Below are positions 11,704-27,815 of a stretch of DNA of 33,115 nt, piece by piece. Positions within the stretch are counted from its first letter, which is position 1, and each line of letters opens with the position of its first letter. The stretch is from Terriglobia bacterium. GTDB lineage: Bacteria > Acidobacteriota > Terriglobia > Bryobacterales > Bryobacteraceae. The stretch spans positions 1-33,115 of the forward strand of contig JAJPJN010000104.1 in assembly GCA_021324185.1 (NCBI GenBank), written 5' to 3'. A model generated the notes under the pieces. That model had not been told where the DNA came from. It saw only the letters and a list, made by a program, of their open reading frames with translations, and searched no databases. A program made the position numbers and the translations under genes.

Positions 11704-12378
11704 TTACCGGACTGCCAGTGTGCCGAAGAGCTTGCTCTCAGGTACCGATTTCCAATCGTCCAGAAACATCTTCAAGCCGATATCTGTCATGGTGTGTTTA
11801 TAGAGGGACTCCATGATATCGAAAGGCATCGTGGCCACGTCGGCCCCGGCCAGCAACGATTCCAGAACCTCCTTCCCCGTACGTATGCTGGCCGCGAGAA
11901 TCTTTGTCTCGTATCCATAGCGATCGTAGATATCGCGAATTTGCTGGACCAACAGCACGCCGTCATCGCCTGCGAGTTCTTTGCGATGAATAAACGGGCT
12001 GATGTACGTTGCTCCTGCCTTCGCGGCCAGATAAGCCTGCACCGCGGAGAAGCACAGCGTCACGTTCGTTTTAATGCCTTCACTCGCCAGTTGCTTAACG
12101 GCCTTCAACCCCTCCGGCATTACCGGCACTTTCACCACCGCGTTGCGGTGAAATGCGGCAATCGCCCGGCCTTCCCGGACAATGTCTTCGGCTTTTGTGC
12201 TGACCGTTTCAACGCTGATAGGCCCATCGACAATTGCGAAAATCTCTTCGAGCACCTGGTCGAAATCGCGCCCCGATTTGGCAATGTGGGTCGGGTTCGT
12301 CGTGACCCCATCCAGGATGCCCCAACTCCAGGCCGTTTTAATCTCACTTACATTCGCGGTGTCGATAAACAGTTGCAT
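11704..12378 (-). CDS. Transaldolase / fructose-6-phosphate aldolase-family protein
   Basis: 224 residues, the short TalC/FSA class, expected as a cytosolic (alpha/beta)8 barrel. MQLFIDTAN and GVTTNPTH open the barrel. K83 in VVKVPVMPEGLKA is the Schiff-base lysine and TNVTLCFSAVQA is the following strand. The residue in the general acid-base position appears to be Glu (ISVETVST, E57). True transaldolases have Glu there, whereas F6P aldolases have Gln, so I favour transaldolase activity. It heads the seven-gene minus-strand run and has a strong Shine-Dalgarno (AGGAG) seven bases before the ATG, caught in a hairpin described separately. Confidence 0.9.
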   Translation of the reverse strand: MQLFIDTANVSEIKTAWSWGILDGVTTNPTHIAKSGRDFDQVLEEIFAIVDGPISVETVSTKAEDIVREGRAIAAFHRNAVVKVPVMPEGLKAVKQLASEGIKTNVTLCFSAVQAYLAAKAGATYISPFIHRKELAGDDGVLLVQQIRDIYDRYGYETKILAASIRTGKEVLESLLAGADVATMPFDIMESLYKHTMTDIGLKMFLDDWKSVPESKLFGTLAVR

Positions 12379-12465: not shown

Positions 12466-13899
12466 ATGGCTACAACAGTTGCGACTCATCCGCTTTTTAT
12501 AGATGGTGAGTGGGTGGATGCGCCCAGACATGACGTGGTCCGCTTGCCTTACGACGGATCGCCCGTTGGTGAGGTGCCGCATGCCGATGCAAGCATTGTC
12601 GATCGCGCGGTTCGCGCCGCCATCAAAGGCTCGCAGGCCATGGCCGCGCTGGCGAACTATGAGCGCGCCGAGCTGCTGCTCAAAATTGCCGCGCTGCTCG
12701 AGCGCGACCGCGAAGAATTTGCGCATATTCTTTCCTCGGAAACCGGCAAGCCCATTCGCGAAGCGCGTGTCGAGGCAGACCGCTGCCCGCAGACCTTGAT
12801 CGCGGCAGCGCATGAGGCCAGGCAACTGCACGGCGAAGTGGTTCCCATGGACTTTGCCCCCGGCGGCAAAGGGCGCATGGCCATCACCATTCGTGAGCCC
12901 ATCGGCGTGATCGGCTCCATTACTCCCTTCAACGTGCCGCTGAATCTCGCCTTGCATAAAGTAGGCCCTGCATTCGCCGGTGGCAACGCGGTGGTCCATA
13001 AGCCCGCCGAGCGGACCCCCCTCAGTGCGCTCCGGCTTGCGCGCACCCTGGACGAAGCCGGTGTCCCGAAAGGCGCATACAACGTAATCACCGGCGATGG
13101 TCCGGAACTCGCGGCGGCCATGTTGAGCCATCCGGATATTGCCATGATCACCTTCACCGGCAGCGTGCGCGTGGGTTCCGAAGTGCGCGCCAAAGCCGGC
13201 TTGAAACGCGTTTTGCTGGAACTGGGAAACAACTCCGCAGTCATCATCGAGCCCGATGGAGATCTGAAGACCGCCATCCAGCGCACCGTGCAAGGCGCAT
13301 TCAGTCACAGCGGCCAGGTCTGCATATCGGTGCAGCGCGCCTTTGTGCACCGCTCCATCGTTTCGGATTTCCTCGACGGCTTGCAGGAGCAGACGGCGAA
13401 GCTGCGCCTGGGGCACCCGTATGAGGATAGTACCGACATCTCTTCACTTATCGATGAAAAAGCCGCCATGCGCGTCGAATCGTGGATCGAAGAGGCAGTT
13501 GCAGCCGGCGCTAAGAAGCTATGCGGCGGAAAGCGCCGTTATGCCACCATTGAGCCCGCAATTCTGACCGATGTACCCGCGGACGCCCGCATTTCCTGCG
13601 AAGAAATTTTCGGGCCAGTCGTCGCGGTATATCCGTACGATGACCTCGATGAGGCCATTGCCCGTGTTAACAATACGCCTTACGGGCTGCAATCGGGCAT
13701 CTTCACCAACGACATTCAACGCGCCTTCCGTTCCGCGCGCAAGCTGCAAATGGGCGGTGTGTTGATCAACGATGTCCCCATGTTCCGCATCGACCACATG
13801 CCCTACGGGGGCGCCAAGCACAGCGGCCTCGGTCGCGAAGGCCCGCGCTACGCGCTCGAAGAAATGACCGAAACAAAAATCGTCTGCTGGAAGGTCTAG
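12466..13899 (+). CDS. NAD(P)-dependent aldehyde dehydrogenase
   Basis: 477 residues, a full-length cytosolic ALDH that oxidises an aldehyde to the acid. The oxyanion Asn is N156 in ITPFNVPLN, the general base is E252 in LLELGNNSA, and the nucleophile is C286 in SGQVCISVQR. The nucleotide-binding FTGSVRVG segment and the C-terminal EEIFGPVVAVYPYDDL and PYGGAKHSGLGREGPRYA blocks are intact. Relatives of this type act on small aldehydes such as lactaldehyde, glyceraldehyde phosphate or succinate semialdehyde. I cannot choose among these. GGAG sits eight bases before the ATG. The divergent partner is a transaldolase-like gene, suggesting a shared regulatory region and a role in triose or aldose metabolism. 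Confidence 0.95.
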   Translation: MATTVATHPLFIDGEWVDAPRHDVVRLPYDGSPVGEVPHADASIVDRAVRAAIKGSQAMAALANYERAELLLKIAALLERDREEFAHILSSETGKPIREARVEADRCPQTLIAAAHEARQLHGEVVPMDFAPGGKGRMAITIREPIGVIGSITPFNVPLNLALHKVGPAFAGGNAVVHKPAERTPLSALRLARTLDEAGVPKGAYNVITGDGPELAAAMLSHPDIAMITFTGSVRVGSEVRAKAGLKRVLLELGNNSAVIIEPDGDLKTAIQRTVQGAFSHSGQVCISVQRAFVHRSIVSDFLDGLQEQTAKLRLGHPYEDSTDISSLIDEKAAMRVESWIEEAVAAGAKKLCGGKRRYATIEPAILTDVPADARISCEEIFGPVVAVYPYDDLDEAIARVNNTPYGLQSGIFTNDIQRAFRSARKLQMGGVLINDVPMFRIDHMPYGGAKHSGLGREGPRYALEEMTETKIVCWKV

Positions 13900-13923: not shown

Positions 13924-14247
13924 CTACCTGCCGCTTCCGTGACTCTTTGCTCCGTTTGCGCTCAATGGATCCGCTGTGCGCGGCACACAGACGCCGTATT
14001 GCTGCGACAAATAGTCCAACAATAGCTGCCGGTTCGAAACGACTGCGCCCCAGCCGATCATCTTCGTGAGCTCTTTATCCCAAGCCGCTTGCGAAAGCCG
14101 CTGCGAATCCACTAAGCGCAGGCTGTGGCACGGGCTGCAACTGCGCTGCTCTTCCTGCCTGGCAGCAGCCGCTTTGTCATCCTGCGCGAAAGCGCACCCG
14201 GCAACCAAGCCTAACAAAACCGGGCCTAACAGAATTAGATATTTCAT
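13924..14247 (-). CDS. Small exported mono-heme cytochrome c, probable electron acceptor of the sulfite oxidase
   Basis: 107 residues with a signal peptide (residues 1-21, ending GCAFA, also resembling a lipobox). One heme-attachment motif CSPCH lies near residues 37-41, and a conserved AAWDKELTKMIGWGA block follows. A candidate distal ligand is the Met in that block. The start overlaps the end of the sulfite oxidase gene by four bases (ATGA), the arrangement expected for a SorA/SorB-like pair where the cytochrome takes electrons from the molybdenum subunit in the periplasm. The pairing is an inference from context. Confidence 0.85.
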   Translation of the reverse strand: MKYLILLGPVLLGLVAGCAFAQDDKAAAARQEEQRSCSPCHSLRLVDSQRLSQAAWDKELTKMIGWGAVVSNRQLLLDYLSQQYGVCVPRTADPLSANGAKSHGSGR

Positions 14248-15395
14248 GCGCCCTTCTCCACAATGACTCCCACCTGATCAATCGCGTTGTAAAGATAGCC
14301 GGAAGGATTCCAGGTCGCCACCACCGGCTGGATATTTCCGGCACTGTCGGTCGCCCTCGACAGGATCGTGTAATAGCCCTCCTTCGGCGGCGTCCATTGA
14401 TACTCCCACAAGCGCCAGGCGAACGGAAGATCCTCCCGTCCCAATTGCGCATCATTCCACGTACGGCCGCTATCGCACGAAACCTCGACCTGCCGGATGC
14501 GTTGCTCCCCGGCCCAGGCGATGCCACGCAAACGCGCCGGCGCCAGCGGAATGCGCTGCTGATCGGACACGCTCGCAATCAACGATTTCACCGGCATGCC
14601 CTCAATTACTTCCAGGTCGGCCGGATTCACCGGCGTCCCCGGCGCCACCGCATGTTTCGGAAAACGGTATCCGGGATTCATAAAGAATCCGGTGTTCGGC
14701 TCGTTCGCCACTGTCAAATTCGTCACCCATTTGACCCAGCTTGTGCCATCCCAGCCCGGCACGATCAGCCGCACCGGAAAGCCGTGAAGCTCTGGAATCG
14801 GCTCGTGATTCATTTGCAGCGCCAAAATCGTGGCCGGATGCAAGGCCTTCTTCATCGGCATCGATCGAATGAAATCGGGCGTCTTCGCAACGCCTGTATC
14901 AGCGCCGTTTGTGGTTACGTAGGCGGCATTGAGATCGGCACCTGCCAGTTTCAAAACGTCGCTCAGGCGCGGCCCGGTCCATTCGGCATTCCCGATCGCG
15001 CCGCGCATCCACTGCACTCCCGGCACTGCCGGCCGGTAAAAGCCGCGCCCGTTGCCCGTGCATTCGAGAGTTGCCGCCACGGTGTATTGCGGCAGCTTGC
15101 GCAGATCGGCGGTGCTCAGTTGAAGCTGCTTCCCGACTCTGCCGTCGAGAGCAACCCGGTGGCTTGCTTCCTGCACAGACGGTCTCGGCAGGTGCTGGCG
15201 CACGAAAAACGCATCGTTGGGCGTAATCCAGGAAGAGAAATAAGACGCCGGCGTTTCCAGGTCCTCCGGCCTGTCGTTGTGAACAATTAAGGGCCGTTTG
15301 CCGGGAATGGTGATCTCCTGGCCGTTGGCTGCTGCGCTCGCAGCCACAATGAGCGCCAACAACTCGCGCCGGGTGGTATTGACGGACACTGACAT
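14244..15395 (-). CDS. Periplasmic molybdopterin-dependent sulfite oxidase-like enzyme
   Basis: 383 residues. A twin-arginine signal (TTRRELLALIVAASAAA) implies export of the folded, cofactor-loaded protein. The oxidoreductase molybdopterin domain has the substrate-site NDAFFVRQHLP (R66, H68), the molybdenum ligand C112 in LECTGNGRGF, and PELHGFPVRLIVPGWDG lining the cofactor. The C-terminal Mo-co dimerisation domain begins near residue 255 with PVKSLI and continues to the end. It probably oxidises sulfite to sulfate or a related oxyanion or sulfoxide and passes electrons to the adjacent cytochrome c. It is divergent from the TonB receptor gene. Confidence 0.92.
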   Translation of the reverse strand: MSVSVNTTRRELLALIVAASAAANGQEITIPGKRPLIVHNDRPEDLETPASYFSSWITPNDAFFVRQHLPRPSVQEASHRVALDGRVGKQLQLSTADLRKLPQYTVAATLECTGNGRGFYRPAVPGVQWMRGAIGNAEWTGPRLSDVLKLAGADLNAAYVTTNGADTGVAKTPDFIRSMPMKKALHPATILALQMNHEPIPELHGFPVRLIVPGWDGTSWVKWVTNLTVANEPNTGFFMNPGYRFPKHAVAPGTPVNPADLEVIEGMPVKSLIASVSDQQRIPLAPARLRGIAWAGEQRIRQVEVSCDSGRTWNDAQLGREDLPFAWRLWEYQWTPPKEGYYTILSRATDSAGNIQPVVATWNPSGYLYNAIDQVGVIVEKGA

Positions 15396-15532: not shown

Positions 15533-18500
15533 ATGTCTCGTTTCAAACGCGATTTGCTCAGCGTGTATGCGGCAATGCTGGTTTTCTTTGCCTCTGCCGC
15601 ATTGATGTTCGGCCAGGCGACAGGACGCATCGGCGGCACCGTTGTAGATTCCACCGGCGCCGTTGTGCCCGGCGCAACCATTGAATGCACTAATAATCAA
15701 ACCGGCCAGGTGCGTACATCGCAAACCAACCAGGACGGTATCTTCGAATTTCCCGATCTACCGATCGGTGAGTACTCACTCGTTATCAGCAAACAGGGTT
15801 TTGAGAGGGAACGCCGCACGCCGGTGCCGCTGATTACCGGCCAGGTTGTGGATCTGCAAATCACCTTGAAGCTGGGCAACGTGAATCAGACGGTGGATGT
15901 CACGGCCGAAGCGCCCCTCATCCAAGCCGCCTCTTCCACGGTGCAGCAGTCGGTAACCGTCAGGCAGATGCAAGATCTGCCCCTGAATCAGCGCAACCCC
16001 TTGCAATTAACCACGCTGACTCCCGGCACTGTTCTGACCAACGTTGGAACGGAATCGGGGCAGCAGGATAACACTGGACTTTCCGTAAACGGATTGCGCC
16101 CCACGCAAAATAATTTTCAGTTGGATGGCGTGATCTATAACGATCGTTTCTTCGATTCCGTGCCCACCATGCCGAACCCCGACGCGCTCGAAGAATTTAC
16201 CATTCAGTCCTCCAACTACAGCGCCGAACACGGCGGAGCGGGCGCTTTGGTGCAATTATCCACCCGCTCCGGAACCAACGAAATTCACGGCAGCGCCTTC
16301 GAGTTTTTCCGCAACACGGTTTTAGATGCGAGGCCTTTCTTTTCTTCCACGCTGCCGCCGTTTAAGTTGAACCAGTTCGGCGGCACTGCCGGTGGACCCA
16401 TCAAGAAAAACAAAACCTTTTTCTTTTTCTCGGCGCAGGATACGCAACGCCGTTCCGCCCCGACCCCGGTGAACATAATCGTCCCCAGTGCCGCCGAGCG
16501 CGCGGGTAATTTTTCTGCCGTCAAGTTGAATGCAACATACAGTGCTCTCTTCCCCGGCAATCAGATTCCCACCAGTCTGTTTAATCCCGTCTCAGTCGCG
16601 GTTGTCAACGCCCTTCTGCCGCTGCCGAACAGCACCATCCAACCCGGCCACTGGACCGGAGTAGCGAATCAGAATTTGGACGACACCCAATACCTGGTGA
16701 AGATCGATCAGATCTTTTCCCAGAACAATCGCTTCAGCGTGCGCTATTTTTACGACGAAGACAATTTTCAGCGGCCGTTTGCTGCGCCCACTGGATTCTT
16801 CGCCGAAAATCTGTTCCGTAATCAGAATCTGGTCCTGAACGACACCCAGGTTTTTAGCCCCACCTTCACGGCCACGTTCTTTGCCAGCGCGGGGCGCTAC
16901 GCGCGTACACAGATCCCTGAAGATCCAGGCCTGCGAACTTTGCAAAGCTTCGGTTATCAGGTCCCGCTAGGAACGCAGGTGCCCATTTTCCCCGGCATCC
17001 GCGCCAACATCTCAGGTTTTGTCAACATCTTCTCTGGCGGCGCGCTGCGGCAGGATTCAACCACCTTCGACTACAAAGCCTCCGCAGTCAAGATTTGGGG
17101 TGCACACACCATCAACTTCGGCGCTTCCTTCGAACGCACCCGCATCGATGCCAACGATTATTCCTACACACCCGGAGACAACACCTTCAATGGACAGTTC
17201 AGCGGCTCTGCCTTGGTCGATTTCTACCTCGGTTTGGAGTCCCAGTTCTTTCAGGACAACGGCCGCGTCTTTTATCTGCGGGAGGATCGGCCGTCCGTTT
17301 ATCTTCAAGATGATTGGAAGGCGAGCAAAGCGCTCACAGTGAACCTCGGCGTGCGCTGGGAGCCCTGGCTGCCTCCCGTTGATCTGAATGGATCTTTGAC
17401 CGCGTTCGTCCCCGGCCAGCAATCCACCGTTGCTCCCAACGCGCCGCTCGGGCTGCTGTATCCCGGCGACAAAGGCATCTCCGATACCGTCTACCATCAC
17501 AACTGGAAGGATTTTGCCCCGCGCGTCGGATTCGCTTATGATCTCGGCGGCAATCACAGGACCGTCATCCGCTCAGCGTACGGAATCTTCTACAGTTTCC
17601 CCGAAGGACTTCTCTACCAGCGCACCGATGCCGTGCAGCCCACCGATCTTTACTTGAGTATCCCTTCGCCGCAGTCATTTACCAATCCGTACCTGGGCTT
17701 CCCCGGCGGTGACCCGTTCCCCCGGCCGCATATATCGCGCAGCCAGTTCGCCACTTACAAATTCATTCTTCCGGTTTCAGGAGGTACTTTGGACCCGGCC
17801 TCGCGGGTCGGCTACACGCAAAACTGGAACTTCACTGTCGAACACCAGTTCCCTCGTAATATCGCGTTGTCCGTTGCTTATGTTGGAAATCACGCCATTG
17901 ACATTATGGGTTCGCGCCAGTTCAATCCGGCGATTCTGCAGCCCGGCGCCACCACGGGAAACGAGAACAGTCGCCGCCTATATCCCGGTTTAGGCGCGAT
18001 GGAACTCGCGAGTTCCTATGTTTACGAAGAATACAATTCGCTGCAGGTCAACGCTACCAAGCGGTTCTCTAGAGGACTGACGTTGCTGACGAATTTCGTC
18101 TGGGGCAAGATCATCGACGACACGTCGAGTGCGACCGAAGGAAGCGCCGGGCCGCCCAATCCGTTCAATTTTGCCAGCGCTCGGGGGCCGGCTGATTACG
18201 ATCAGGAGTATCGCTACACCCTTTCGGCCAACTACAATTTTCCGCACGCAAATGTCAGCGGCTTCGCCAATGTGTTAGTTAACGACTGGCAGCTTAACAC
18301 GTTAGTCTTCCTCTACAGCGGACTTCCATTCACCATCACCAGCGGAACGGACAGATCCTTGTCCGGAATCGGCAACGACTACGCGGATTATGTTCCCGGC
18401 GTGAGTCCGGCGCGTCCTGCGGGGGCCAGCCAGGTAGCGGCGTACTTTAACCCCGCGGCATTTCAACTTGCCGCGCTCGGCACGTTCGGCGACACGGGCC

Positions 18501-18727
18501 GTAATATTTTGCGCGGTCCGGCTTATTTCGATGTCGATGTCTCCGTGTTCAAGAACTTCTTTTTCACCGAAAGGTGGCGCCTGCAATTTCGTGCCGAAGC
18601 CTTCAACATTGAGAACCGGCCTAATTTCCAAAATCCGGTGGCCTCAGTGAATGCATCGAACTTCGGCCAGATCACCGCGACCAGCGATCCTCGCGTCCTG
18701 CAGTTTGCGTTGAAGTTAACTTTTTGA
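15533..18727 (+). CDS. TonB-dependent receptor, Oar-like, with N-terminal carboxypeptidase-regulatory domain
   Basis: 1064 residues. A signal peptide (about 1-28, ending SAALMFGQA) precedes a carboxypeptidase-regulatory-like domain at about 30-115 (GTVVDSTGAVVPGATIEC). A plug domain follows at about 125-245 (GLSVNGLRPTQNNFQLDGV, AEHGGAGALVQLSTRSGTNE). The remainder is an outer-membrane beta barrel ending in the typical terminal aromatic (VLQFALKLTF). Acidobacteria encode many such receptors, thought to import oligosaccharides or other large solutes with TonB energy. The stop TGA shares a base with the ATG of the following larA-like gene, so this receptor appears to be the first gene of a catabolic operon. 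Its substrate is therefore probably the sugar acid or glycoside handled downstream. Confidence 0.93.
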   Translation: MSRFKRDLLSVYAAMLVFFASAALMFGQATGRIGGTVVDSTGAVVPGATIECTNNQTGQVRTSQTNQDGIFEFPDLPIGEYSLVISKQGFERERRTPVPLITGQVVDLQITLKLGNVNQTVDVTAEAPLIQAASSTVQQSVTVRQMQDLPLNQRNPLQLTTLTPGTVLTNVGTESGQQDNTGLSVNGLRPTQNNFQLDGVIYNDRFFDSVPTMPNPDALEEFTIQSSNYSAEHGGAGALVQLSTRSGTNEIHGSAFEFFRNTVLDARPFFSSTLPPFKLNQFGGTAGGPIKKNKTFFFFSAQDTQRRSAPTPVNIIVPSAAERAGNFSAVKLNATYSALFPGNQIPTSLFNPVSVAVVNALLPLPNSTIQPGHWTGVANQNLDDTQYLVKIDQIFSQNNRFSVRYFYDEDNFQRPFAAPTGFFAENLFRNQNLVLNDTQVFSPTFTATFFASAGRYARTQIPEDPGLRTLQSFGYQVPLGTQVPIFPGIRANISGFVNIFSGGALRQDSTTFDYKASAVKIWGAHTINFGASFERTRIDANDYSYTPGDNTFNGQFSGSALVDFYLGLESQFFQDNGRVFYLREDRPSVYLQDDWKASKALTVNLGVRWEPWLPPVDLNGSLTAFVPGQQSTVAPNAPLGLLYPGDKGISDTVYHHNWKDFAPRVGFAYDLGGNHRTVIRSAYGIFYSFPEGLLYQRTDAVQPTDLYLSIPSPQSFTNPYLGFPGGDPFPRPHISRSQFATYKFILPVSGGTLDPASRVGYTQNWNFTVEHQFPRNIALSVAYVGNHAIDIMGSRQFNPAILQPGATTGNENSRRLYPGLGAMELASSYVYEEYNSLQVNATKRFSRGLTLLTNFVWGKIIDDTSSATEGSAGPPNPFNFASARGPADYDQEYRYTLSANYNFPHANVSGFANVLVNDWQLNTLVFLYSGLPFTITSGTDRSLSGIGNDYADYVPGVSPARPAGASQVAAYFNPAAFQLAALGTFGDTGRNILRGPAYFDVDVSVFKNFFFTERWRLQFRAEAFNIENRPNFQNPVASVNASNFGQITATSDPRVLQFALKLTF

Positions 18728-20010
18728 TGCCGGCTGAGCAAGACTTCGAAATTCCGTTCGGGCGCGATCACCTGCGCATCCGTTTACCGGCAGAATTGAT
18801 TGCGCCCCGGCCGGCTGAACAGATTCTCGACGAGCGCCAAGCAATCGAGACGGCGGTCCAGCACCCCGTCGGAACTCCTCCCCTGCGCGAAATTGTGCGC
18901 CCCGGCGAGCAGATTGCAATCATCGTCAATGACATCACCAGGCTCTGCCGCACCGATCTGATGCTTCCGCCGCTTGTCGACACGCTGAACGCCGCCGGTA
19001 TTCCCGATCGCGACATCTTCATCGTCTTTGCTTTGGGCATTCATCGCGAGCAAACGGAAGAAGAGCGCCGTCAAATTGTAGGCGACGCAATCTATGGCCG
19101 CTTCCGCATGTTCGACCACATCTCGACAGATTCGGCCAACCTGGTTTATGTTGGTACCACCAGTTTTGGTAATCGCGTCGAAATCAATCGCCAGGTCTGG
19201 GAAGCTGATCGCATCATTTTGACCGGCGAGATTATTTATCACTTAATCGCCGGCTATAGCGGCGGCCGCAAAAGTCTGGTTCCCGGAGTCGCCGGTTTCG
19301 ATACCACCACCTTCAACCACCGCATGATCTTTGACCCGCGCTGCCGCGTGGGCTTGCTGGACGGCAATCCGGCGCATGAGGATCTCCTCGAAGCCTGCCG
19401 CCTGGTGGATCCCGATTTCATGCTCAATCTGGTGCTCACCCCCGAGGGCAAGCTGGCGCGCGCCGTCGCGGGTCACTACGATTTAGCCCATCGCGAAGGC
19501 TGCCGCGCGGTGGACGAAATGATGCGCATCGGCATAGAAGAACGCTTCGATCTCATCATTGCTTCCGCGGGCGGCTTTCCGCTCGATATCGATCTGCGCC
19601 AGGCGCACAAGCCGCTCGAAAACGCCTGCTGTGCCCTGCGGCCGGGCGGCTCGATTCTTTTTTACGCCGAATGTTCGAACGGCGCCGGTATTCGTTCTTT
19701 TGAAGAATACGTCGAACGCTACTCGACGCATGACGAAATGCGCGCCGCTTTGCAACGGAAATTCGTTGTTGGCGGCCACAAGGCGTATTGGGTCACGCGG
19801 CTCGGCAGCGAATATGACGTGCATCTGGTCTCCAGGCTTGATCCGGCCTTCGTGGACCGCTGCCGGTTGCAACACGTGCCGGTTGCTGAGCACGAGTTGC
19901 GATTGCAGCAATTACTCGAAAAGGCAGGCGGTGAGGCGCGTGTTGGCGTCATACCGCATGCGGCGTTCACCCTGCCGGCGCCCGATTTTGTTGAGGCAGG
20001 AATTGTTTGA
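18727..20010 (+). CDS. LarA-family nickel-dependent hydroxyacid racemase/epimerase
   Basis: 427 residues from ATG 18727, which overlaps the receptor stop by one base. Lactate racemase uses a covalently bound nickel-pincer cofactor to exchange hydride at C2 of 2-hydroxyacids. All key positions are present with a constant offset of about two from the Lactobacillus enzyme. They are D69 and R72 in VNDITRLCR, H106 in ALGIHRE, H172 in YHLIAGYSGGRKSLVPG, the cofactor-anchoring K182 in the same block, and the nickel ligand H198 in TFNHRM. Cofactor genes larB, larC and larE are not in the window. Placement directly before a split UxaA-type dehydratase argues for an aldonate-type C2 epimerase rather than a lactate racemase. 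The substrate is inferred, not shown. Confidence 0.9.
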   Translation: MPAEQDFEIPFGRDHLRIRLPAELIAPRPAEQILDERQAIETAVQHPVGTPPLREIVRPGEQIAIIVNDITRLCRTDLMLPPLVDTLNAAGIPDRDIFIVFALGIHREQTEEERRQIVGDAIYGRFRMFDHISTDSANLVYVGTTSFGNRVEINRQVWEADRIILTGEIIYHLIAGYSGGRKSLVPGVAGFDTTTFNHRMIFDPRCRVGLLDGNPAHEDLLEACRLVDPDFMLNLVLTPEGKLARAVAGHYDLAHREGCRAVDEMMRIGIEERFDLIIASAGGFPLDIDLRQAHKPLENACCALRPGGSILFYAECSNGAGIRSFEEYVERYSTHDEMRAALQRKFVVGGHKAYWVTRLGSEYDVHLVSRLDPAFVDRCRLQHVPVAEHELRLQQLLEKAGGEARVGVIPHAAFTLPAPDFVEAGIV

Positions 20011-20021
20011 AAAACAAACTA

Positions 20022-20027
20022 AGGGAG
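20022..20027 (+). promoter_or_regulatory. Ribosome binding site fixing the GTG start of the SAF-domain gene
   Basis: AGGGAG lies five bases before GTG 20033. The reading frame is open far upstream inside larA in another frame, so this site together with homology decides the start. Confidence 0.6.
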
Positions 20028-20032
20028 TCATA

Positions 20033-20356
20033 GTGGCTATTGAAGCTTTCGTCATAGATCCAAATGATAACGTCGCAACGCTCTTCATTCACCAGGGCGC
20101 GCGCGGTTCATCTATAAAGGTCCAGATTGACGGCAAAGATGCTGAGATCCAATTGCGTGACAATGTGCCGTTTGCGCACAAATTTGCTATCCGGCCAATT
20201 CGAAAAGGCGAACAGGTAATCAAGTACGGCTATTCGATTGGAACGGCTACGGAGGACATCGAGCCGGGGCAACACGTACACATCCACAACACGGAATCAA
20301 ACAGAGGACGCGGCGATCTGGCAGGCTCAAGTCCTTCGAGTGGAGCAGGCAAGTGA
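20033..20356 (+). CDS. SAF-domain small subunit of a UxaA-type (altronate/sulfolactate-like) dehydratase
   Basis: 107 residues from GTG 20033. It is essentially one SAF domain. HKFAIRPIRKGEQVIKYGYS and IGTATEDIEPGQHVHIHN are close to the N-terminal domain of altronate dehydratase and to SuyA, the small subunit of sulfolactate sulfo-lyase. In E. coli UxaA this domain is fused to the catalytic part. Here it is a separate gene whose stop overlaps the GTG of the large subunit by four bases (GTGA). It probably forms a complex with that subunit and contributes to substrate binding. The hydrophilic tail after NRGRGD lacks structure. Confidence 0.88.
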   Translation: MAIEAFVIDPNDNVATLFIHQGARGSSIKVQIDGKDAEIQLRDNVPFAHKFAIRPIRKGEQVIKYGYSIGTATEDIEPGQHVHIHNTESNRGRGDLAGSSPSSGAGK

Positions 20357-21534
20357 AAAAACAGTTGCGAAATACCTGGATGGGTTATCGCCGGCCCGAT
20401 GGTCAAGCCGGCGCCCGTAATTCTTTACTATTGCTCTCCGGGACACTCTATGCCAACAGCGTCATCGAGCGGCTCGGGCACATGATTGCGAATACCACCG
20501 TCATCACGCATCCGCTCGGCCGCTGCCAGGTCATGCCTGATTTGCGGCTGACCCGCAAGACCCTGGTGGGCACTGCATTGAATCCCAATTGCGGCGGTGT
20601 CATCGTCATTGATCATCATCGCGAAACCGGTTGCACCGCAGAAGAGATGGCCCACGACATTGCCAAGAGCGGTAAGCCTGTCGAAGCCATCAATATTCGC
20701 GAAAGCGGCGGCGCCATTGAGGCAACCGCGCGCGGTTTAAGAATCGCGCTCGATATGCTGCGAAAAATCAGCACGCAAAATCGCGAAGAAGTTCCGGTCT
20801 CGGAATTGATTTACGGCCTCAACTGCGGAACTTCCGATACCACATCCGGCATCAGCTCGAATAAAGCCGTCGGTTATTGTTCCGACATGATCATCGATCA
20901 GGGCGGCCGCTCGATTCTGGCCGAAACTACGGAAATGCTGGGCGGCGAGCAGGTGTTGGCTGCGCGCGCGGCAACTCCCCAGATTGCCGATCGAATCTGG
21001 GAAATTACCAAACGCATGGAACAGCGCGCTCTCGCATCCGGAGAAGACATCCGCGGATCGCAGCCCACCGGCGACAACATCCTGGGCGGGCTCAGCTCGA
21101 TTGAAGAAAAATCGCTGGGCGCCATTCAGAAGAGCGGCACCAAACCCATCGTCGGTGTGGTTGATTATGCGGAGCCGATTGGACGCGAGCCCGGTCTGTA
21201 CATCATGGACACTCCGGGTCATGGCGGCGAATCGATCACCGGCATAGCGGCCGCCGGATCGCAGATCCTCACCTTCTCCACCGGGGGCGGCCACACCATC
21301 AATCATCCTTTGATGGTGACCATCCGGCTGACCGGCAATAAAACCTCGTTTGAAAAAATGAGAGATACGGTCGAGTTGGACGTAAGCGACATTTTCCAGG
21401 GGATGTCCATCGAAGAAGCCGGCATGCGCGTTTATAACGAGGTCATCGAAACCGCCTCCGGCAAGCTGACCAAGTGTGAAATTCTGCGTGAGAACAATGC
21501 CTTCGCCATCCATCGCATCGGCATCAGCATCTGA
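20353..21534 (+). CDS. UxaA-family dehydratase, catalytic large subunit (altronate dehydratase/SuyB-like)
   Basis: 393 residues from GTG 20353, lacking the SAF domain, which is encoded by the preceding gene. Family blocks are GYRRPDGQAGARNSLLLLSG near residue 11, LNPNCGGVIVIDHH near 73, YGLNCGTSDTTSGISSNKAVG near 150, GSQPTGDNILGGLSSIEEKS near 225 and IMDTPGHGGESITGIAAAGS near 280. Such metal-dependent enzymes remove water from aldonates (altronate, galactarate) to give 2-keto-3-deoxy acids, or bisulfite from sulfolactate. The adjacent LarA homologue suggests a sugar-acid substrate whose C2 configuration must first be corrected. Exact substrate unknown. Confidence 0.9.
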   Translation: MKKQLRNTWMGYRRPDGQAGARNSLLLLSGTLYANSVIERLGHMIANTTVITHPLGRCQVMPDLRLTRKTLVGTALNPNCGGVIVIDHHRETGCTAEEMAHDIAKSGKPVEAINIRESGGAIEATARGLRIALDMLRKISTQNREEVPVSELIYGLNCGTSDTTSGISSNKAVGYCSDMIIDQGGRSILAETTEMLGGEQVLAARAATPQIADRIWEITKRMEQRALASGEDIRGSQPTGDNILGGLSSIEEKSLGAIQKSGTKPIVGVVDYAEPIGREPGLYIMDTPGHGGESITGIAAAGSQILTFSTGGGHTINHPLMVTIRLTGNKTSFEKMRDTVELDVSDIFQGMSIEEAGMRVYNEVIETASGKLTKCEILRENNAFAIHRIGISI

Positions 21535-22090: not shown

Positions 22091-22969
22091 ATGCATTCAC
22101 GACGTGTGTTCCTCCAGACGATGGCTGCTGTTTCCGGCGCCACTGCGCTCCGCGCACGCGATTTTCCAAATGTGAAACTGGGCGCCCAAACCAACGCTTG
22201 GCCGGTCAATCCGGCCGATCTGTCCACTTTCTTTGCTGTGCTCGACAAAATCAAGGCCTATGGATTCGATGGTTTTGAGACCGGCTTCGCTAATCTCCGC
22301 AGCCGGTTTCAATCACCGCAGGAAACAAAGCAGCGCATTGAAGCTACGCAACTACAGTTTTTCGGGATTCACATTTTTCTGCCGCATTACGATCCTGATA
22401 CGCACATCGCGCCTGCCAGCCTCTATGAAGAGGTCGCGCGCGGCGGCTCTGCGCTGGGAGCGCAACGGCTCATCTTAAGCGGGGCGCCCGTTTCAAACGA
22501 AAGCGGCCTCGACGAGCCGGCGTTAACCCGCAAGATAGCAGCGCTCAACCGCGCTGGCCGCTTTGCACAAAGCGTTGGCATGCGCATGGCGGCCTATCAC
22601 AACCACGCGCCCGAATTCGCTCGCAATGGTGCTGAAATCGTCGCCTTGATGCGCGAGACAGATCCAGCCGCCGTCGGCTTTCTGCTGGACGCAGGCCATG
22701 CTTACGAAGCCGGTACCGATGTGCCGGATTTTTTCAGCCGCCATCATCAGCGCATCATCGGCTTGCATTTGCGCGACTATAAAAGTGGAGAACAGGTTCC
22801 GTTGGGCAGCGGCACGTTCCCTTTGCAGCAGTTGGCCTCGGCAATCGAACGCGCCAGATGGCAAGGTTGGATCTTATGCGAAGAGGAGCGTCTGAAGAGC
22901 AAACCCGGAGACGCTGCTATGCGTCCGGCTCGCGACGCGCTGTTCCGGGTATTTCGAGGTGAAGCGTGA
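22091..22969 (+). CDS. Tat-exported sugar phosphate isomerase/epimerase-like TIM-barrel protein
   Basis: 292 residues. The N-terminus is a textbook twin-arginine signal (HSRRVFLQTMAAVSGATAL), so the folded, metal-loaded protein is likely exported. The AP-endonuclease-2/xylose-isomerase-like barrel begins VKLGAQTNAWPV. Metal-site residues appear in AAYHNHAPEF, FLLDAGHAYEAG, GLHLRDYKSGE and LCEEERL. Relatives isomerise or epimerise sugars or keto-sugars, and some act as lyases on 3-keto glycosides. The gene ends with a four-base overlap (GTGA) with the Gfo/Idh/MocA gene. A paralogue pair lies at 26979-28928. Confidence 0.9.
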   Translation: MHSRRVFLQTMAAVSGATALRARDFPNVKLGAQTNAWPVNPADLSTFFAVLDKIKAYGFDGFETGFANLRSRFQSPQETKQRIEATQLQFFGIHIFLPHYDPDTHIAPASLYEEVARGGSALGAQRLILSGAPVSNESGLDEPALTRKIAALNRAGRFAQSVGMRMAAYHNHAPEFARNGAEIVALMRETDPAAVGFLLDAGHAYEAGTDVPDFFSRHHQRIIGLHLRDYKSGEQVPLGSGTFPLQQLASAIERARWQGWILCEEERLKSKPGDAAMRPARDALFRVFRGEA

Positions 22970-24147
22970 ATCGAAGAGAAATGGCAAAACTCATGGGTGG
23001 CGCGGCTCTGAGCGCCGCATCCTATCGTCGCGTTCTGGGCGCCAACGATCGCATTGGGATTGCGCTCATCGGCAGCGGCCGGCGCGGAACCAGCGTCATG
23101 GGTTCCATGCTGGAGACCGGGCGCGTCGATCTGCGCTGCATCTGCGATATCTACGATGTTCAGCGAAATGACGCCCGAAAAAAGCTGGCGCCCGGCAAAC
23201 AGGATGTTACCGAGTGCGTAGCGCATGAAGAAGCTTTTGAGCAGCCCGGAGTTGATGCTGTTTTAATCGCAGTCCCTGATCATTTGCACATTGAACTTGC
23301 CGCAGCCGCGCTTGGGGCAGGGAAGCATGTCTATTTGGAAAAACCCACCACGCACCGCTTTGAGGAACAACAGAAACTGCGCGAGGCCGCGGCATCGAGC
23401 GGCAAAGTGCTTCAGTGCGGAACACAGCAGCGGAGCGGCGAGCACTATATTCGCGCCAAGCAGGAGATCTTCGGGCAAAACAAGCTCGGCAAGGTGGTCA
23501 TCGTGCGCACGATGTGGAGTGATTTTCCCTGGCAGCAGCGTCATCTCCCGCCACGCCCCAAACCCCCAGGCCTTGATTGGAACCGCTTTCTCGGCCCCGC
23601 GCCGGCCGTGCCGTTTGATTGGGCCCGCTATAACTCGTGGCGCTACTTCCCCGATTACGGCGACGGTTTGGTCGCCGATATCCTCACGCATTGGGCCGAC
23701 GTCGCCCAATGGATGCTGGATGAAACTCATCCACTTACGGCCAGTGCGGCGGGCGGCATCTATTATCCGCCCGATCACGACGGGCGCATCAATCCCGATA
23801 CCATCAACGCGATTTTGACCTATCCCGGAGGTTGGAACCTCACCTTTGAATCGAGCGTGCTTTCGCTAAAAGCCCAGCAGCCAACCGTGGTCTTCCTCGG
23901 TACGGAAGGATCGCTCGATATCTCCCGCGAGCGCTACATTTTCATGCCGAACGAGGGAGCGCAGCAGGTGGTTCGTGCATCAGGGCCGCTCGAAGCCGCC
24001 CACGTGTCCAACTTTTTCGATGCCATCACGAAAGGCGCAAAGCCCAACGCATCGGTGGAAATCGGAATCCAGGCCTGCAATCCCGTCCACCTCGCCAATC
24101 GCGCCTATTGGGAAAAGCGCACCGTCGCCTGGGAAGAGCTTGTATGA
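22966..24147 (+). CDS. Tat-exported Gfo/Idh/MocA-family oxidoreductase (copy 1)
   Basis: 393 residues. The N-terminal NRREMAKLMGGAALSAAS is a twin-arginine-type signal. The NAD(P)-binding Rossmann fold begins IGIALIGSGRRG near residue 31. The family lysine is in EKPTTHR (E125, K126, P127). The C-terminal alpha/beta domain has DGLVADILTHWADVAQWML, which provides the usual active-site H/D residues. Members oxidise or reduce sugars and cyclitols. Exported members, which carry a tightly bound NAD cofactor, have been linked to oxidation of glycosides at C3. It is encoded with a TIM-barrel epimerase and followed after seven bases by a bicupin gene. Confidence 0.92.
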   Translation: MNRREMAKLMGGAALSAASYRRVLGANDRIGIALIGSGRRGTSVMGSMLETGRVDLRCICDIYDVQRNDARKKLAPGKQDVTECVAHEEAFEQPGVDAVLIAVPDHLHIELAAAALGAGKHVYLEKPTTHRFEEQQKLREAAASSGKVLQCGTQQRSGEHYIRAKQEIFGQNKLGKVVIVRTMWSDFPWQQRHLPPRPKPPGLDWNRFLGPAPAVPFDWARYNSWRYFPDYGDGLVADILTHWADVAQWMLDETHPLTASAAGGIYYPPDHDGRINPDTINAILTYPGGWNLTFESSVLSLKAQQPTVVFLGTEGSLDISRERYIFMPNEGAQQVVRASGPLEAAHVSNFFDAITKGAKPNASVEIGIQACNPVHLANRAYWEKRTVAWEELV

Positions 24148-24154
24148 GGTTTTT

Positions 24155-24961
24155 ATGGCAACGACATTAACCAGAACCATCGAGGAGAAGCAGACGCCCG
24201 CCGCGGTAAAACCCGGTGTCCTGTTTCGCGCGGACCAATCAGGCGTCGAGTTTCGCCAGCGCTTCGTTCATTCGGAAGCAAACTTGCAATTTCTCGATTG
24301 CGGGGAATACCGGCTTGCGCCGCAGGCAAAATCAACTGCCCTTTCACTTCCGGGCCGCGAAAGTTTGCTTTTCATGTGGAAAGGCGAAGCTGCCGTTGAG
24401 GTAAACGGCCGTGAATTTCATCTCGCTCCCTACGACACGCTCTACATTCCGCGCAGCGCTGAATTCGTAATTTCAAATGAAGGGGACACTCCCGCCGCTA
24501 TCATTCAAACGTCTGCTCCGGCGGAAAATGTGCACCCGGTCTTCCATTCGAAATTCGCTGAGTTTTCGCAGCGCGAAGAACGGATTCGCAGCTTGAGCGG
24601 AAAAAACGTCTACATGATGTTCGATGTGTCGGAAGGCGCGGATAAACTGGTCGCAGGCTACACGTTCTTTGAGCCCTATGCCCGCTCCTGGCCGCCGCAC
24701 AACCACACCGATCAGGAAGAAACCTACATCTTTATCAAAGGACACGGCTCGATGGAGGTCTACGAGTCGCCCGAAAAACTTACCTTCGTGCACAACGTTC
24801 AGGAGGGCGATTTAGTGACGATCCCGTTCCTGAACTACCATCCTGTTTTCTCTCAGGAGTCGCCGCTCGAATTTATCTGGTGTATCGCCGGCGAGCGCTA
24901 CTGGGTCGGCGATAAGAACAAAGCCTTCATGAACGCCTCCGTCGATTCCCTAACCACCTAG
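24155..24961 (+). CDS. Bicupin protein, IolB/KduI-like (5-deoxyglucuronate isomerase-like)
   Basis: 268 residues from ATG 24155, with GAGG six bases upstream. It contains two cupin domains. The first is at about 60-120 (FMWKGEAAVEVNGREFHLAP, DTLYIPRSAEFVI). The second is at about 165-255, with metal-binding HNHTDQEETYIFIKGHG (two His and a Glu) and NYHPVF (His). Size and double-cupin form match IolB and KduI, isomerases of deoxyglucuronate and keto-deoxyuronate, which would suit a uronate or inositol-like pathway. Overall similarity is only apparent by pattern, so a generic cupin isomerase is the alternative. It has no signal peptide and is the last gene of the receptor-led operon. Its end overlaps the convergent GntR gene by 12 bases. 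Confidence 0.8.
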   Translation: MATTLTRTIEEKQTPAAVKPGVLFRADQSGVEFRQRFVHSEANLQFLDCGEYRLAPQAKSTALSLPGRESLLFMWKGEAAVEVNGREFHLAPYDTLYIPRSAEFVISNEGDTPAAIIQTSAPAENVHPVFHSKFAEFSQREERIRSLSGKNVYMMFDVSEGADKLVAGYTFFEPYARSWPPHNHTDQEETYIFIKGHGSMEVYESPEKLTFVHNVQEGDLVTIPFLNYHPVFSQESPLEFIWCIAGERYWVGDKNKAFMNASVDSLTT

Positions 24962-25627
24962 GAAACCGTTGGACTGCTGATCCGCGAGAAAAGCCACCAG
25001 CCGTTGCCGTACATTGCTGATGTGGCGGCGCATCGCCGATTGCGCTTCTTCCCGATCGCTTTTGCGCAGCGCATCCACAATCGCCTGATGAAAATCCGGT
25101 GCGATGCTCGAGGATAAATCGTACGTCTTACGCCGCGATAACCAGATCCGGTTCTGCACGTTTTGCAACATGCGGCATAACTCGCGGTTGTTCGTCGCAT
25201 CCGCCAGCAAGGCGTGAAAGCGCACGTCCTCCTCAATGTATTTCGGCTTGTCGTTTACCTTTAGCAGTGCGCGTGAACGCTTCACGCTTTTGTCCAGTTC
25301 GTTCAGCAGCGCCGGCGTAACGTGGGCCGTTCGCGCCACATGGACTTCTAATGCCTCCCGAAGATCGTAAAGCTGCTCCATCTCTTCGGGTGAAAATTGC
25401 CGCAGATATGCGCCCCGGCGCGGAGCAATGCGAATAAAGCCTTCGCTCTCCAGCCGGTTTAATGCCTCGCGAATGGGAGATTTGCTGATTCCAAGCTGAT
25501 TCGCTAACGCCTCTTCCGTCAGCCTGTGGTTTTCATCCAGGCGGCCTTCGAGAATGTATTCCTTAATGCTGTCGTACGCGCGCGTCGTTAGCGTATTAGG
25601 AATTGTCAGCTTCTTCAGGCGTGGCAC
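24950..25627 (-). CDS. GntR-family transcriptional regulator, FadR/FCD subfamily
   Basis: 225 residues. The N-terminal winged helix has LTEEALANQLGISKSPIREAL followed by RLESEGFIRIAPRRGAYL (about residues 37-77). The C-terminal FCD all-helical effector domain carries D/H residues in EEDVRFHALLADATNN and SSIAPDFHQAIVDAL that usually bind a metal and a carboxylic-acid ligand. FCD regulators commonly sense sugar acids, so it likely controls the sugar-acid genes on both sides. It is co-transcribed with the MFS gene, 9 bases after it. Confidence 0.93.
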   Translation of the reverse strand: MPRLKKLTIPNTLTTRAYDSIKEYILEGRLDENHRLTEEALANQLGISKSPIREALNRLESEGFIRIAPRRGAYLRQFSPEEMEQLYDLREALEVHVARTAHVTPALLNELDKSVKRSRALLKVNDKPKYIEEDVRFHALLADATNNRELCRMLQNVQNRIWLSRRKTYDLSSSIAPDFHQAIVDALRKSDREEAQSAMRRHISNVRQRLVAFLADQQSNGFLGG

Positions 25628-25636
25628 TCTAATATC

Positions 25637-26926
25637 TTAGATTCTACGGCCCTCAATCCTTCCCACAATCGCGTGCAGCACGATAACGCCCGTCAGGGGC
25701 AGAATCGCTGCCACAAAAAAGACCGGTGCATAGGAAAAGCGATCGATCAAAAAGCCGGTCAGAAGCGGAAATAGCCAGCCGCTCAGGCCGCCCGCAATGC
25801 CCGTCAGTCCGGTCACCCGCCCCACTGCCGGCTTTGGCACCAGGTCCGAAATCGCGGCGAACATATTGGCGGAAAGAAATGTGTGCCCGAACAGCACCAT
25901 GCAGATGAACGCAATGGCCATCGCCGCCGTCGCTGCTTCCACCACGCCCGCACTCAACAGGCAGAAAAGCGCGCCCGCATACAACGTGAGGAACCGGGCC
26001 GCATTCAGACTGAACCGGTGCTTTAGCAGTTGTCCCGCCACCCAGCCCCCGCCAATACTCCCCAGATCGCCGAACAAAAAAGGCACCCAGGCGAAAAGGC
26101 CGATCTGCGCGAGCGTCAATCCACGCGATTTATAAAGATATTCCGGCGTCCAGAACAGATAAAACTGCACCACCGGCCCAACGAAAAACCGGCACAGCAT
26201 CAGCCCCCAAACTTCCTTTTTCGATAACAACTCGCGATTGCGCGGTGGGGCTGCGGCGGACGTTTTTCCTTCTTCGATGTAGGAGCGTTCCGCCGCCGTG
26301 ACCTTCGGATGCGCTCGCAGCGGCGCATATTGCGCCCGCCAGCACAGCGTCCAGATAATCCCCAGTACGGCTGGAAGCAGAAACGCTGCCCGCCAGCCGA
26401 AATGCAGAGTGATGAAAACAATGCACGGAGCCGCGATGACCGCTCCCACCATGCTGCCGCTGTTGAAAACACCTACCGCGAGCGCGCGCTCCCGCTCGGG
26501 AAACCATTCCGAAATCACCTTCATCGCTCCGGAAAAGTTGCCGCATTCGCCGGTGCCCATCCAGAATCGAAACGCGCTGAATTGAAGTACCGAACGCCCG
26601 ATCGAGTGCATCGCGGTCGCAATAGACCACCAAACCACGGCAAACGAAAATCCCGCCCGCACGCCCCAGCGATCCATCAGCCAGCCCATCGGAAATTCGC
26701 CGACCATCATTCCGAACATGAACGCCGAGACCATTCGCGCATAATCGCTGTTCGTCATGTGGAACGTTTCGAGCAGCACCGGCGCAACTACCGATAGCGT
26801 CTGGCGATCAATGAAATTGATTACCGTAATGAAGAAAAGCAGAGCCAGAATGCGCCATCGCACCTGCATCCACCAGGCCGGGACTCCCAATCCGGCCGGT
26901 GTTCCTAACCGCGGCGTGATGGACAT
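25637..26926 (-). CDS. MFS transporter of the anion:cation symporter family (ExuT-like hexuronate transporter)
   Basis: 429 residues with twelve membrane segments. The first helix holds the family NFIDRQTLSVVAP motif, typical of hexuronate and aldonate carriers. The cytoplasmic loop after helix 2 has MGWLMDRWGVRAGF, and GTGECGNFSGAMKVISEWFP is the conserved helix 4-5 region. It should import a monomeric sugar acid with a proton. Its gene is co-directional with the downstream GntR regulator gene and divergent, across only 52 bases, from the second epimerase gene. This makes it the likely inner-membrane uptake step of the locus. Confidence 0.93.
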   Translation of the reverse strand: MSITPRLGTPAGLGVPAWWMQVRWRILALLFFITVINFIDRQTLSVVAPVLLETFHMTNSDYARMVSAFMFGMMVGEFPMGWLMDRWGVRAGFSFAVVWWSIATAMHSIGRSVLQFSAFRFWMGTGECGNFSGAMKVISEWFPERERALAVGVFNSGSMVGAVIAAPCIVFITLHFGWRAAFLLPAVLGIIWTLCWRAQYAPLRAHPKVTAAERSYIEEGKTSAAAPPRNRELLSKKEVWGLMLCRFFVGPVVQFYLFWTPEYLYKSRGLTLAQIGLFAWVPFLFGDLGSIGGGWVAGQLLKHRFSLNAARFLTLYAGALFCLLSAGVVEAATAAMAIAFICMVLFGHTFLSANMFAAISDLVPKPAVGRVTGLTGIAGGLSGWLFPLLTGFLIDRFSYAPVFFVAAILPLTGVIVLHAIVGRIEGRRI

Positions 26927-26978: not shown

Positions 26979-27815
26979 GTGACACGACGCGAATTCCTGG
27001 CCGCTTCGGCCTGCGCAGCTTCTCTCTGTTTCGCAAAACCCGCGGCCATCAAAGTCGGTTGCCAGGCCAACGCCTGGCCTTTGAAGGAAGGCGATTTCGA
27101 TCAATTGATCGATGTCGTCCACACCATCAAATCTCTCGGCTACGCGGGCTTTGAGTGCAACATCCGCTTCGTTCGTGGCCAGTTCGGCCACGCAGCGGAA
27201 GCGCGCAAGCGAATCGAGGATACCGGAATCCAGTTCATCGGCGCCCACACCAATATGCAGGAAGCTGCGCGGGAAGACTTTGCAAAAGCCGCTGCCGGCG
27301 CGGCGCAGTTGGGCGCTCTGTATATCGTGATGAGCGGCAGCGGGCTGGCGCCGAACGGCCAGTTTTCAGATGAAGCCTTGAAAACGAAAGCCGCGCAACT
27401 CGAAAACCTGGCCAGAACCTGCCGACAGAGCGGCATCGAGCTCGCCTACCATAACCACACCGCCGAATTCGCCAACAACAACGCGGAAATGGAAGGCCTG
27501 GCAGATCACACGGATCCGAAGCTCGTCAGCTTTCTGATGGATGCCGGGCATGGTTACCAGGGCGGCGGCAATCCTGCCGCGTTCATGTTGCGCGATTCCG
27601 ATCGCATCGTCGGATGCCACATCAAGACCTTTCGTGACAAGACTATGCAGGTTCCGCTGGGGCAAGGAGACTTTGGTTTTGAAGCGCTCGCCGCAGCCAT
27701 CAGGAAAACAGGCTGGACCGGCTGGCTCATTGACGAAGAGGGCGGTGGAAAAACGGCCGATTCGCCGGCAGTTGGTCCCGACCGCCAATACATCAGAAGA
27801 ATTTTTGGAGTTTGA
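26979..27815 (+). CDS. Tat-exported sugar phosphate isomerase/epimerase-like TIM-barrel protein (copy 2)
   Basis: 278 residues from GTG 26979. Longer open frames run upstream into the MFS gene, but the twin-arginine signal TRREFLAASACAASLCFA starts here. The mature barrel begins IKVGCQANAWPL, nearly the same phrase as in copy 1. Metal-site blocks are present in the same order as copy 1: LAYHNHTAEFANNN, FLMDAGHGYQGG, GCHIKTFRDK and LIDEEGG. The protein is followed by a Gfo/Idh/MocA oxidoreductase gene after 12 bases, repeating the arrangement seen at 22091-24147. It probably acts on a product of that oxidoreductase in the periplasm. Confidence 0.9.
   Translation: MTRREFLAASACAASLCFAKPAAIKVGCQANAWPLKEGDFDQLIDVVHTIKSLGYAGFECNIRFVRGQFGHAAEARKRIEDTGIQFIGAHTNMQEAAREDFAKAAAGAAQLGALYIVMSGSGLAPNGQFSDEALKTKAAQLENLARTCRQSGIELAYHNHTAEFANNNAEMEGLADHTDPKLVSFLMDAGHGYQGGGNPAAFMLRDSDRIVGCHIKTFRDKTMQVPLGQGDFGFEALAAAIRKTGWTGWLIDEEGGGKTADSPAVGPDRQYIRRIFGV

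Follow-up and report, generated by a model that had tools for sequence, protein, structure and literature searches.

Sulfosugar breakdown yields (S)-sulfolactate, the sulfo-lyase SuyAB acts on the R form (excerpts of PMC12421959 and PMC9594981), and two NAD(P)-linked dehydrogenases are the known means of correcting the configuration (excerpts of PMC12421959). In Chromohalobacter salexigens these dehydrogenases, SlcC and ComC, racemise sulfolactate for SuyAB (Denger and Cook 2010, via excerpts of PMC6018796, PMC9594981 and PMC12421959). Contig C130 of the draft genome G000 (a Terriglobia bacterium; 4.70 Mb, 184 contigs, 96.85% complete), analysed at its full length of 33115 bases and here called the window, carries a gene of the LarA family followed by genes for a small SAF subunit and a large subunit of a UxaA/GarD-family enzyme. 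Which hydroxy acid do these two enzymes handle? The initial annotation had proposed the C2 epimerisation of an aldonate that then feeds a dehydratase. From comparisons of gene order, of the residues of LarA, of cysteine loss and of the placement of the large subunit in the SuyB clade, together with a SorA-like neighbour, the lack of a ComC-family match and the presence of cofactor synthesis genes, we consider that LarA is probably a 3-sulfolactate racemase that depends on the nickel-pincer nucleotide (NPN) and feeds SuyAB.

The open reading frames (ORFs) and their Pfam domains bear out larA and separate SAF and catalytic subunit genes within positions 18727-21534. LarA matches Lar_N (225.4 bits) and LarA_C (43.6 bits), the small subunit matches SAF (24.4 bits) and the large subunit GD_AH_second (81.6 bits) and GD_AH_C (251.2 bits), all over the cut-offs and far beyond chance. 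The ATG of larA at 18727 overlaps the stop codon of a TonB-type receptor gene by one base, and the large-subunit gene overlaps the SAF gene by 4 bases. A second UxaA, of the fused form, is located elsewhere in the same genome.

Four cysteines, for which iron binding was proposed, are conserved across the UxaA/GarD superfamily with the exception of sulfolactate sulfo-lyase (excerpts of PMC6336799). At a threshold of 6 out of 7 sugar-acid dehydratase rows, our alignment has exactly four cysteine columns (33, 57, 90 and 158), each with 7/7, and the window protein has Tyr, Arg, Arg and Cys there, that is, one of the four iron-site cysteines. The SAF and GD_AH domains are shared with UxaA, GarD and C785_RS13685 (the D-altronate, galactarate and D-arabinonate dehydratases), whereas these enzymes keep all four cysteines. 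A two-subunit UxaA/GarD enzyme that lacks the cysteines corresponds to SuyAB; the split into subunits alone is not diagnostic, because two-subunit sugar-acid members exist. In plasmid searches the split UxaA genes were found in two settings, either with sugar-acid genes (2-keto-3-deoxygluconate permease, dihydrodipicolinate synthase family, α-ketoglutarate semialdehyde dehydrogenase) or with sulfonate genes (hpsN/hpsO, sulfite or sulfate exporters, SlcC- and ComC-like dehydrogenases). The SuyAB of Cupriavidus pinatubonensis, encoded in an hpsNO-suyAB cluster, resembles the window enzyme in its two subunits, in the loss of three cysteines and in Arg57; it differs in that the large subunits are 36% identical and the window protein groups with a haloarchaeal sister branch.

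This grouping comes from a tree of 33 large-subunit rows, from which two long-branch rows (Haladaptatus_2nd and G530_second) were left out and in which the labels of sulfonate or sugar context rest on gene neighbours. All 10 SuyB-context rows fall in one clade (support 95/91) that includes the window protein, which joins three haloarchaeal proteins with a support of 100/99. Exporters of sulfite or sulfate are encoded next to two of these three haloarchaeal genes, and next to one of the two there is also a HisD/HpsN-type gene. All 20 SuyB-clade rows, that of the window among them, carry Arg57, which is absent from the other 13. The approximately unbiased (AU) test rejects a grouping of the window protein with three split sugar-context rows (p 0.00012) or with all cysteine-keeping rows (p 0.0035). 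From the 52 columns invariant in sugar-acid rows the window protein departs at 14, and the large subunits of Sporomusa termitida and of the acidobacterial genome G348 at 3 each.

Aligned with Mar2 and LarAIp, LarA retains the six residues named in the initial annotation (D69, R72, H106, H172, K182 and H198) as well as K295, the equivalent of LarA K298, so that the equivalents of D72, R75, H108, H174, K184, H200 and K298 are all present. Four further positions predict the substrates of LarA enzymes, and malate racemases have His or Gln plus Lys at the last two (excerpts of PMC11770544). The window protein carries L173, I174, H351 and K352 at these positions; it has L, I and H in place of the F, F, W signature of lactate racemases, lacks the E, V, A, H signature of the GntE enzymes, and shows the His-Lys pair of malate racemases at the W358/T359 positions. 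At the position of Tyr294, which in LarAIp bonds the 2-hydroxyl (excerpts of PMC11851776), an arginine (Arg291) is found in 19/19 rows of the window's LarA clade with a letter there, in 0/29 other acidobacterial LarAs and in 0/2 PDB rows. This clade, defined at an identity of at least 60%, includes 20 of the 237 genomes of the bacterial family, our own among them (2/20 partial); it is supported at 100 (SH-aLRT) and is separate from the Mar2 clade in a quick tree that left out L121 and did not have the verified Lactobacillus plantarum lactate racemase among its rows.

The highest-scoring NCBIfam model for LarA is LarAH10 (425.9 bits, cut-off 540), followed by the malate racemase models LarAH6 (416.4 bits, cut-off 500) and LarAH5 (345.6 bits, cut-off 462), all under their cut-offs. 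A lactate racemase, which the initial annotation had already set aside, is ruled out by the score against NF033504 (290.5 bits, cut-off 460) and by the pocket signature. With the Megasphaera elsdenii LarAH10, of the hydrophobic hydroxyacid racemase group, the protein shares the Leu after the second catalytic His; it differs in having His351 rather than Phe or Tyr at the W358 position. Among solved relatives Mar2 is the best match (279.4 bits), ahead of LarAIp (224.8 bits) and L. plantarum LarA (165.5 bits). Mar2/LarAH6 (PDB 6d6z) has the fold family, the NPN and catalytic residues and the His-Lys pair in common with the window protein, which has His294 in place of Gln. A Mar-type malate or tartrate racemase-epimerase, with the SuyAB-like lyase incidental or used for mixed dicarboxylates, would explain this match and the His-Lys pair, and would suit those genomes of the clade that have no SuyAB; yet the protein stays below the malate racemase cut-off and in a clade of its own, Arg291 replaces the Tyr kept by Mar2, and the neighbouring genes scanned included none of the malic-enzyme type. 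We regard this alternative as unlikely.

The pocket and the large subunit bear together on the aldonate proposal, according to which LarA inverts C2 of an aldonate and the split UxaA-type dehydratase forms a 2-keto-3-deoxy acid. LarAH10 of M. elsdenii and the GntE enzymes epimerise gluconate and mannonate (PMC7583248; excerpts of PMC11770544), a hexonate-type major facilitator superfamily (MFS) transporter gene lies nearby, and in the clade member G613 (L113/L040:7566-9293 region) larA is preceded by a gluconolactonase/esterase-domain gene, which would fit a sugar-acid substrate there. Against this stand the three missing cysteines, the SuyB-clade placement with the AU result against split sugar-context rows, and the L, I, H, K of LarA, with its malate-racemase pair, versus E, V, A, H in GntE; on these grounds we reject the proposal, which we judge highly improbable. 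The distinct sugar-acid route claimed with it is not new as to the epimerase, since LarA-family gluconate 2-epimerases are already in print (PMC7583248; excerpts of PMC11770544), and is plausible at other LarA-UxaA loci. Plasmid pSPTER of S. termitida (L130:5329-8155) carries in a row TctABC, a LarA that matches the group-22 model with 532.2 bits (cut-off 400), and a split UxaA pair with four cysteines, and is a better candidate for an epimerase-dehydratase route. G348 (L202:7741-12622) has genes for a short-chain dehydrogenase/reductase, uxaS, uxaL with four cysteines, an MFS transporter and a LarA of a type different from the window's, nearest to a "putative hexonate epimerase" model (224.6 bits, cut-off 500); such a route may operate at this locus and at that of S. 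termitida.

G000 has a single LarA and LarB-, LarC- and LarE-type genes for NPN synthesis: the LarE-type protein scores 310 bits (cut-off 150), the LarB-like AIRC protein 50 bits in a frame of 252 aa, and larC lies in two pieces at contig ends (C171:48001-48840 and C107:3-263), which as far as seen points to a break in the assembly and not in the gene. The ComC family (PF02615, Ldh_2) has no match in G000, G633 or G538, all with LarA and a SuyB-type gene, the absences in G633 and G538 being provisional given a completeness of 84% and 87%, respectively; no search was aimed at SlcC-type genes. Within the family of the window, a SuyB-clade gene occurs together with the clade LarA in G000, G633, G590, G568 and G538, and without it in G523, which has a ComC-family gene. 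The association (4/15 LarA-clade genomes in the sample counted vs 1 of at least 163 further genomes of the family) gives a Fisher p of 1.6e-4, or 1.5e-3 when our own genome is removed, both values ignoring relatedness. In addition, the SuyB-clade gene occurs in 5/10 LarA-clade genomes whose larA has neighbours like those in the window and in 0/10 of those without them (p 0.033, grouped after seeing the data).

These neighbours also bear on a further alternative, in which the substrate of LarA would be a different acid formed by the nearby aldehyde dehydrogenase, namely lactate, glycerate or a sulfonated hexonate, with SuyAB no more than a neighbour. Near larA, an orthologue of this dehydrogenase is found in 9/20 clade genomes and SuyB-type genes in 2; the best NCBIfam model of the window dehydrogenase is lactaldehyde dehydrogenase (497.8 bits, cut-off 650), and LarAs can racemise glycerate (excerpts of PMC11770544). 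We find this improbable in view of the lactate-racemase score far under its cut-off, of a charged pocket (R291, H294 and K352) ill-suited to lactate, and of the distribution of SuyB-clade genes just given.

To compare the locus with suyAB clusters, the Cupriavidus SuyB was used as a query against 396 genomes of the phylum. It matched in nine at E 1e-68 or better: seven proteins are 65-68% identical, and those of G348 (40%) and G054 (37%) keep the cysteines and fall outside the SuyB clade. In four of the seven, G130, G273, G305 and G382, which belong to the same class as the window, the gene order is aldehyde dehydrogenase-suyA-suyB-comC-slcC; G293 and G028 showed no comC/slcC, and G376 showed neither. 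The LarA of the window clade is present in none of the seven (G376 has a different LarA). In the window LarA stands in the place that comC/slcC occupy in these four suyAB loci. The dehydrogenases of the four genomes are about 35-40% identical to the type near larA, and their stretches include an SftI-like isomerase with a phosphofructokinase in 3/4, a LacD-type aldolase in 3/4, a homologue of the window MFS transporter in 2/4 and of its DUF5054 protein in 3/4 (one partial). Clusters with isomerase, phosphofructokinase, LacD, aldehyde dehydrogenase, suyAB, comC and slcC (L203:6701-19710 in G130, L204:7455-19293 in G382, L208 and L209) suggest that a path from sulfosugar to sulfite is encoded in one genome. 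The phosphofructokinase of G130 is over the cut-off of the pyrophosphate-dependent subfamily model (393.8 bits vs 273). In G293 an Ldh_1-family (malate/lactate dehydrogenase) gene (L199:10472-11419) overlaps the end of suyB, where others have comC/slcC; it is possible that it encodes a further type of sulfolactate dehydrogenase. Excerpts of PMC6018796 report suyAB in SbA4 and SbA5, and name slcC/comC for SbA5 only.

In the pathway that we propose, in which every substrate and reaction, the flux direction and the upstream sugar are inferred, the nearby aldehyde dehydrogenase would oxidise sulfolactaldehyde to (S)-sulfolactate. LarA would invert C2 from S to R by proton-coupled hydride transfer on the NPN cofactor, with H106 and H172 as acid/base, NPN on K182 and nickel on H198; the positive groups R291, H294 and K352 would hold the sulfonate where malate racemases hold the second carboxylate. 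SuyAB would then eliminate sulfite from (R)-sulfolactate to give pyruvate, presumably without the iron site that the loss of a hydroxyl needs, because sulfite is a good leaving group, and the SorA-like sulfite dehydrogenase with its CXXCH partner may oxidise the sulfite. LarA alone would do the job shared by SlcC and ComC in known pathways. As in those, a SuyB-type lyase lies beside the proposed inverter of sulfolactate C2, with sulfite-handling and aldehyde dehydrogenase genes near; the difference is one NPN enzyme versus two NAD(P)-linked dehydrogenases. Taken as a whole, the locus could supply a receptor, a hydrolase-like step (DUF5054), a transporter, aldolase-type cleavage, aldehyde oxidation, and the LarA, SuyAB and SorA-like steps.

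Several observations weigh against a sulfolactate racemase. Direct adjacency of larA and uxaSL was seen in the window only: the conserved larA-uxaA neighbourhood that the initial annotation suggested looking for did not appear in 9 loci and 19 contexts of close relatives (partly overlapping sets), and in G590, the only relative with larA and uxaS-uxaL on one contig, they are 13 kb apart. A SuyB-clade gene is missing from 15/20 LarA-clade genomes, and both LarA and a ComC-family gene are carried by G590 and G568. The 10/20 genomes of the clade without such neighbours (except sorA in G475) have the same pocket residues, so LarA may have another substrate. The best substrate of M. elsdenii LarAH10, which belongs to the NCBIfam family nearest to the window protein, is D-mannonate/D-gluconate (excerpts of PMC11770544). 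As for the lyase, the large subunit is more identical to the sugar-context protein of Priestia (43.3%) than to Cupriavidus SuyB (35.9%); it matches 7/49 SuyB-proper positions, the haloarchaeal branch 8/49 and other split rows 3 to 6; and Haladaptatus_LUD, outside the SuyB clade, lost the same cysteines too. The SorA-like protein scores under its model's cut-off (Table 1), and excerpts of PMC6018796 doubt such low-homology sorA genes in related metagenome-assembled genomes. As to the sugar upstream, the transaldolase scores higher with plain TalC types (246.8 bits) than with BmSF-TAL (165.1 bits), and no SftI/SqvD-type sulfoquinovose isomerase was found in G000 (best 95.7 bits, cut-off 700, vs 163-174 in the four suyAB-comC-slcC genomes).

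The features of the window are listed in Table 1. In G475 the SorA-like and CXXCH genes lie directly before larA, all in one direction. The G590 contig carries larA, a YeiH-type exporter gene and uxaS-uxaL, and G538 has the exporter gene by larA. A tim1-gfo1 pair is found near suyAB also in G305 (49%/49%). For gfo1 and gfo2 a GH188-type sulfoquinovosidase was considered and rejected, given that no chain so named was among the matches listed. The DUF5054 protein had no solved relative at E 0.01, and our literature search found no paper naming the domain. Proteins over the family cut-off occur in 14/396 genomes of the phylum, in two cases no more than 10 kb from suyAB, and in 4 of the 10 genomes positive with the SuyB query (our own added) vs 10/386 others; this association is weak because two of the ten (G348 and G054) fall outside the SuyB clade.

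Table 1. Features of the window in order of position
Feature	Position	Strand	Remarks
DUF5054 protein	9627..11642	-	53-58% identity with proteins next to suyAB-comC-slcC in G130 and G382
TalC/FSA-type transaldolase or aldolase	11704..12378	-	Near larA in 4/20 clade genomes in all
Aldehyde dehydrogenase	12514..13899	+	Orthologue near larA in 8 other genomes; putative sulfolactaldehyde dehydrogenase
Small exported-looking CXXCH protein, SorB-like	13924..14247	-	Counterpart beside larA in G475
SorA-like molybdopterin sulfite dehydrogenase	14244..15395	-	334.6 bits, cut-off 600
TonB-type outer-membrane receptor	15533..18727	+	63% identical homologue directly upstream of uxaS-uxaL in G590
larA	18727..20010	+	427 aa, ATG start; proposed NPN-dependent 3-sulfolactate racemase
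Small SAF subunit, SuyA-like	20033..20356	+	107 aa, GTG start, behind AAGGGAG
Large subunit, SuyB-like	20353..21534	+	GTG start; Y33, R57, R90; C158 kept
Methyltransferase-like ORF	21557-22090		Right after large subunit; weak match, 18.5 bits
tim1, xylose-isomerase-like TIM barrel	22106..22969	+	Near larA in 5/20 clade genomes
gfo1, Gfo/Idh/MocA oxidoreductase	22966..24147	+	
KduI/IolB-like cupin	24155..24961	+	Near larA in 6/20 clade genomes
GntR/FCD regulator	24950..25627	-	
MFS transporter, hexonate type	25637..26926	-	53% identical in G130 and 48% in G273, both near suyAB; 5/20 clade genomes
tim2, second TIM barrel	27081..27815	+	Near larA in 5/20 clade genomes
gfo2, second Gfo/Idh/MocA oxidoreductase	27828..28928	+	

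NPN epimerases beyond lactate are not new, since the substrates already known for LarA enzymes include malate, tartrate, hydroxyglutarate and gluconate, among others (PMC7583248; excerpts of PMC11770544). Among open-licence PMC papers we found none that connects LarA or lactate racemase to sulfolactate or sulfoquinovose, nor a sulfonated LarA substrate or a LarA serving SuyAB. We tentatively suggest that the locus may represent a third route of sulfolactate racemisation, in which a single redox-neutral NPN enzyme takes the place of SlcC and ComC within a locus of one organism that leads from sulfosugar to pyruvate and sulfate. If LarA does act in this way, sulfonates would be added to the substrate range of the LarA family, and genomes with suyAB and without comC would be explained. 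Arg291 would offer a simple marker for finding more such LarAs, and nickel would be linked to organosulfur turnover in soil and peat bacteria.

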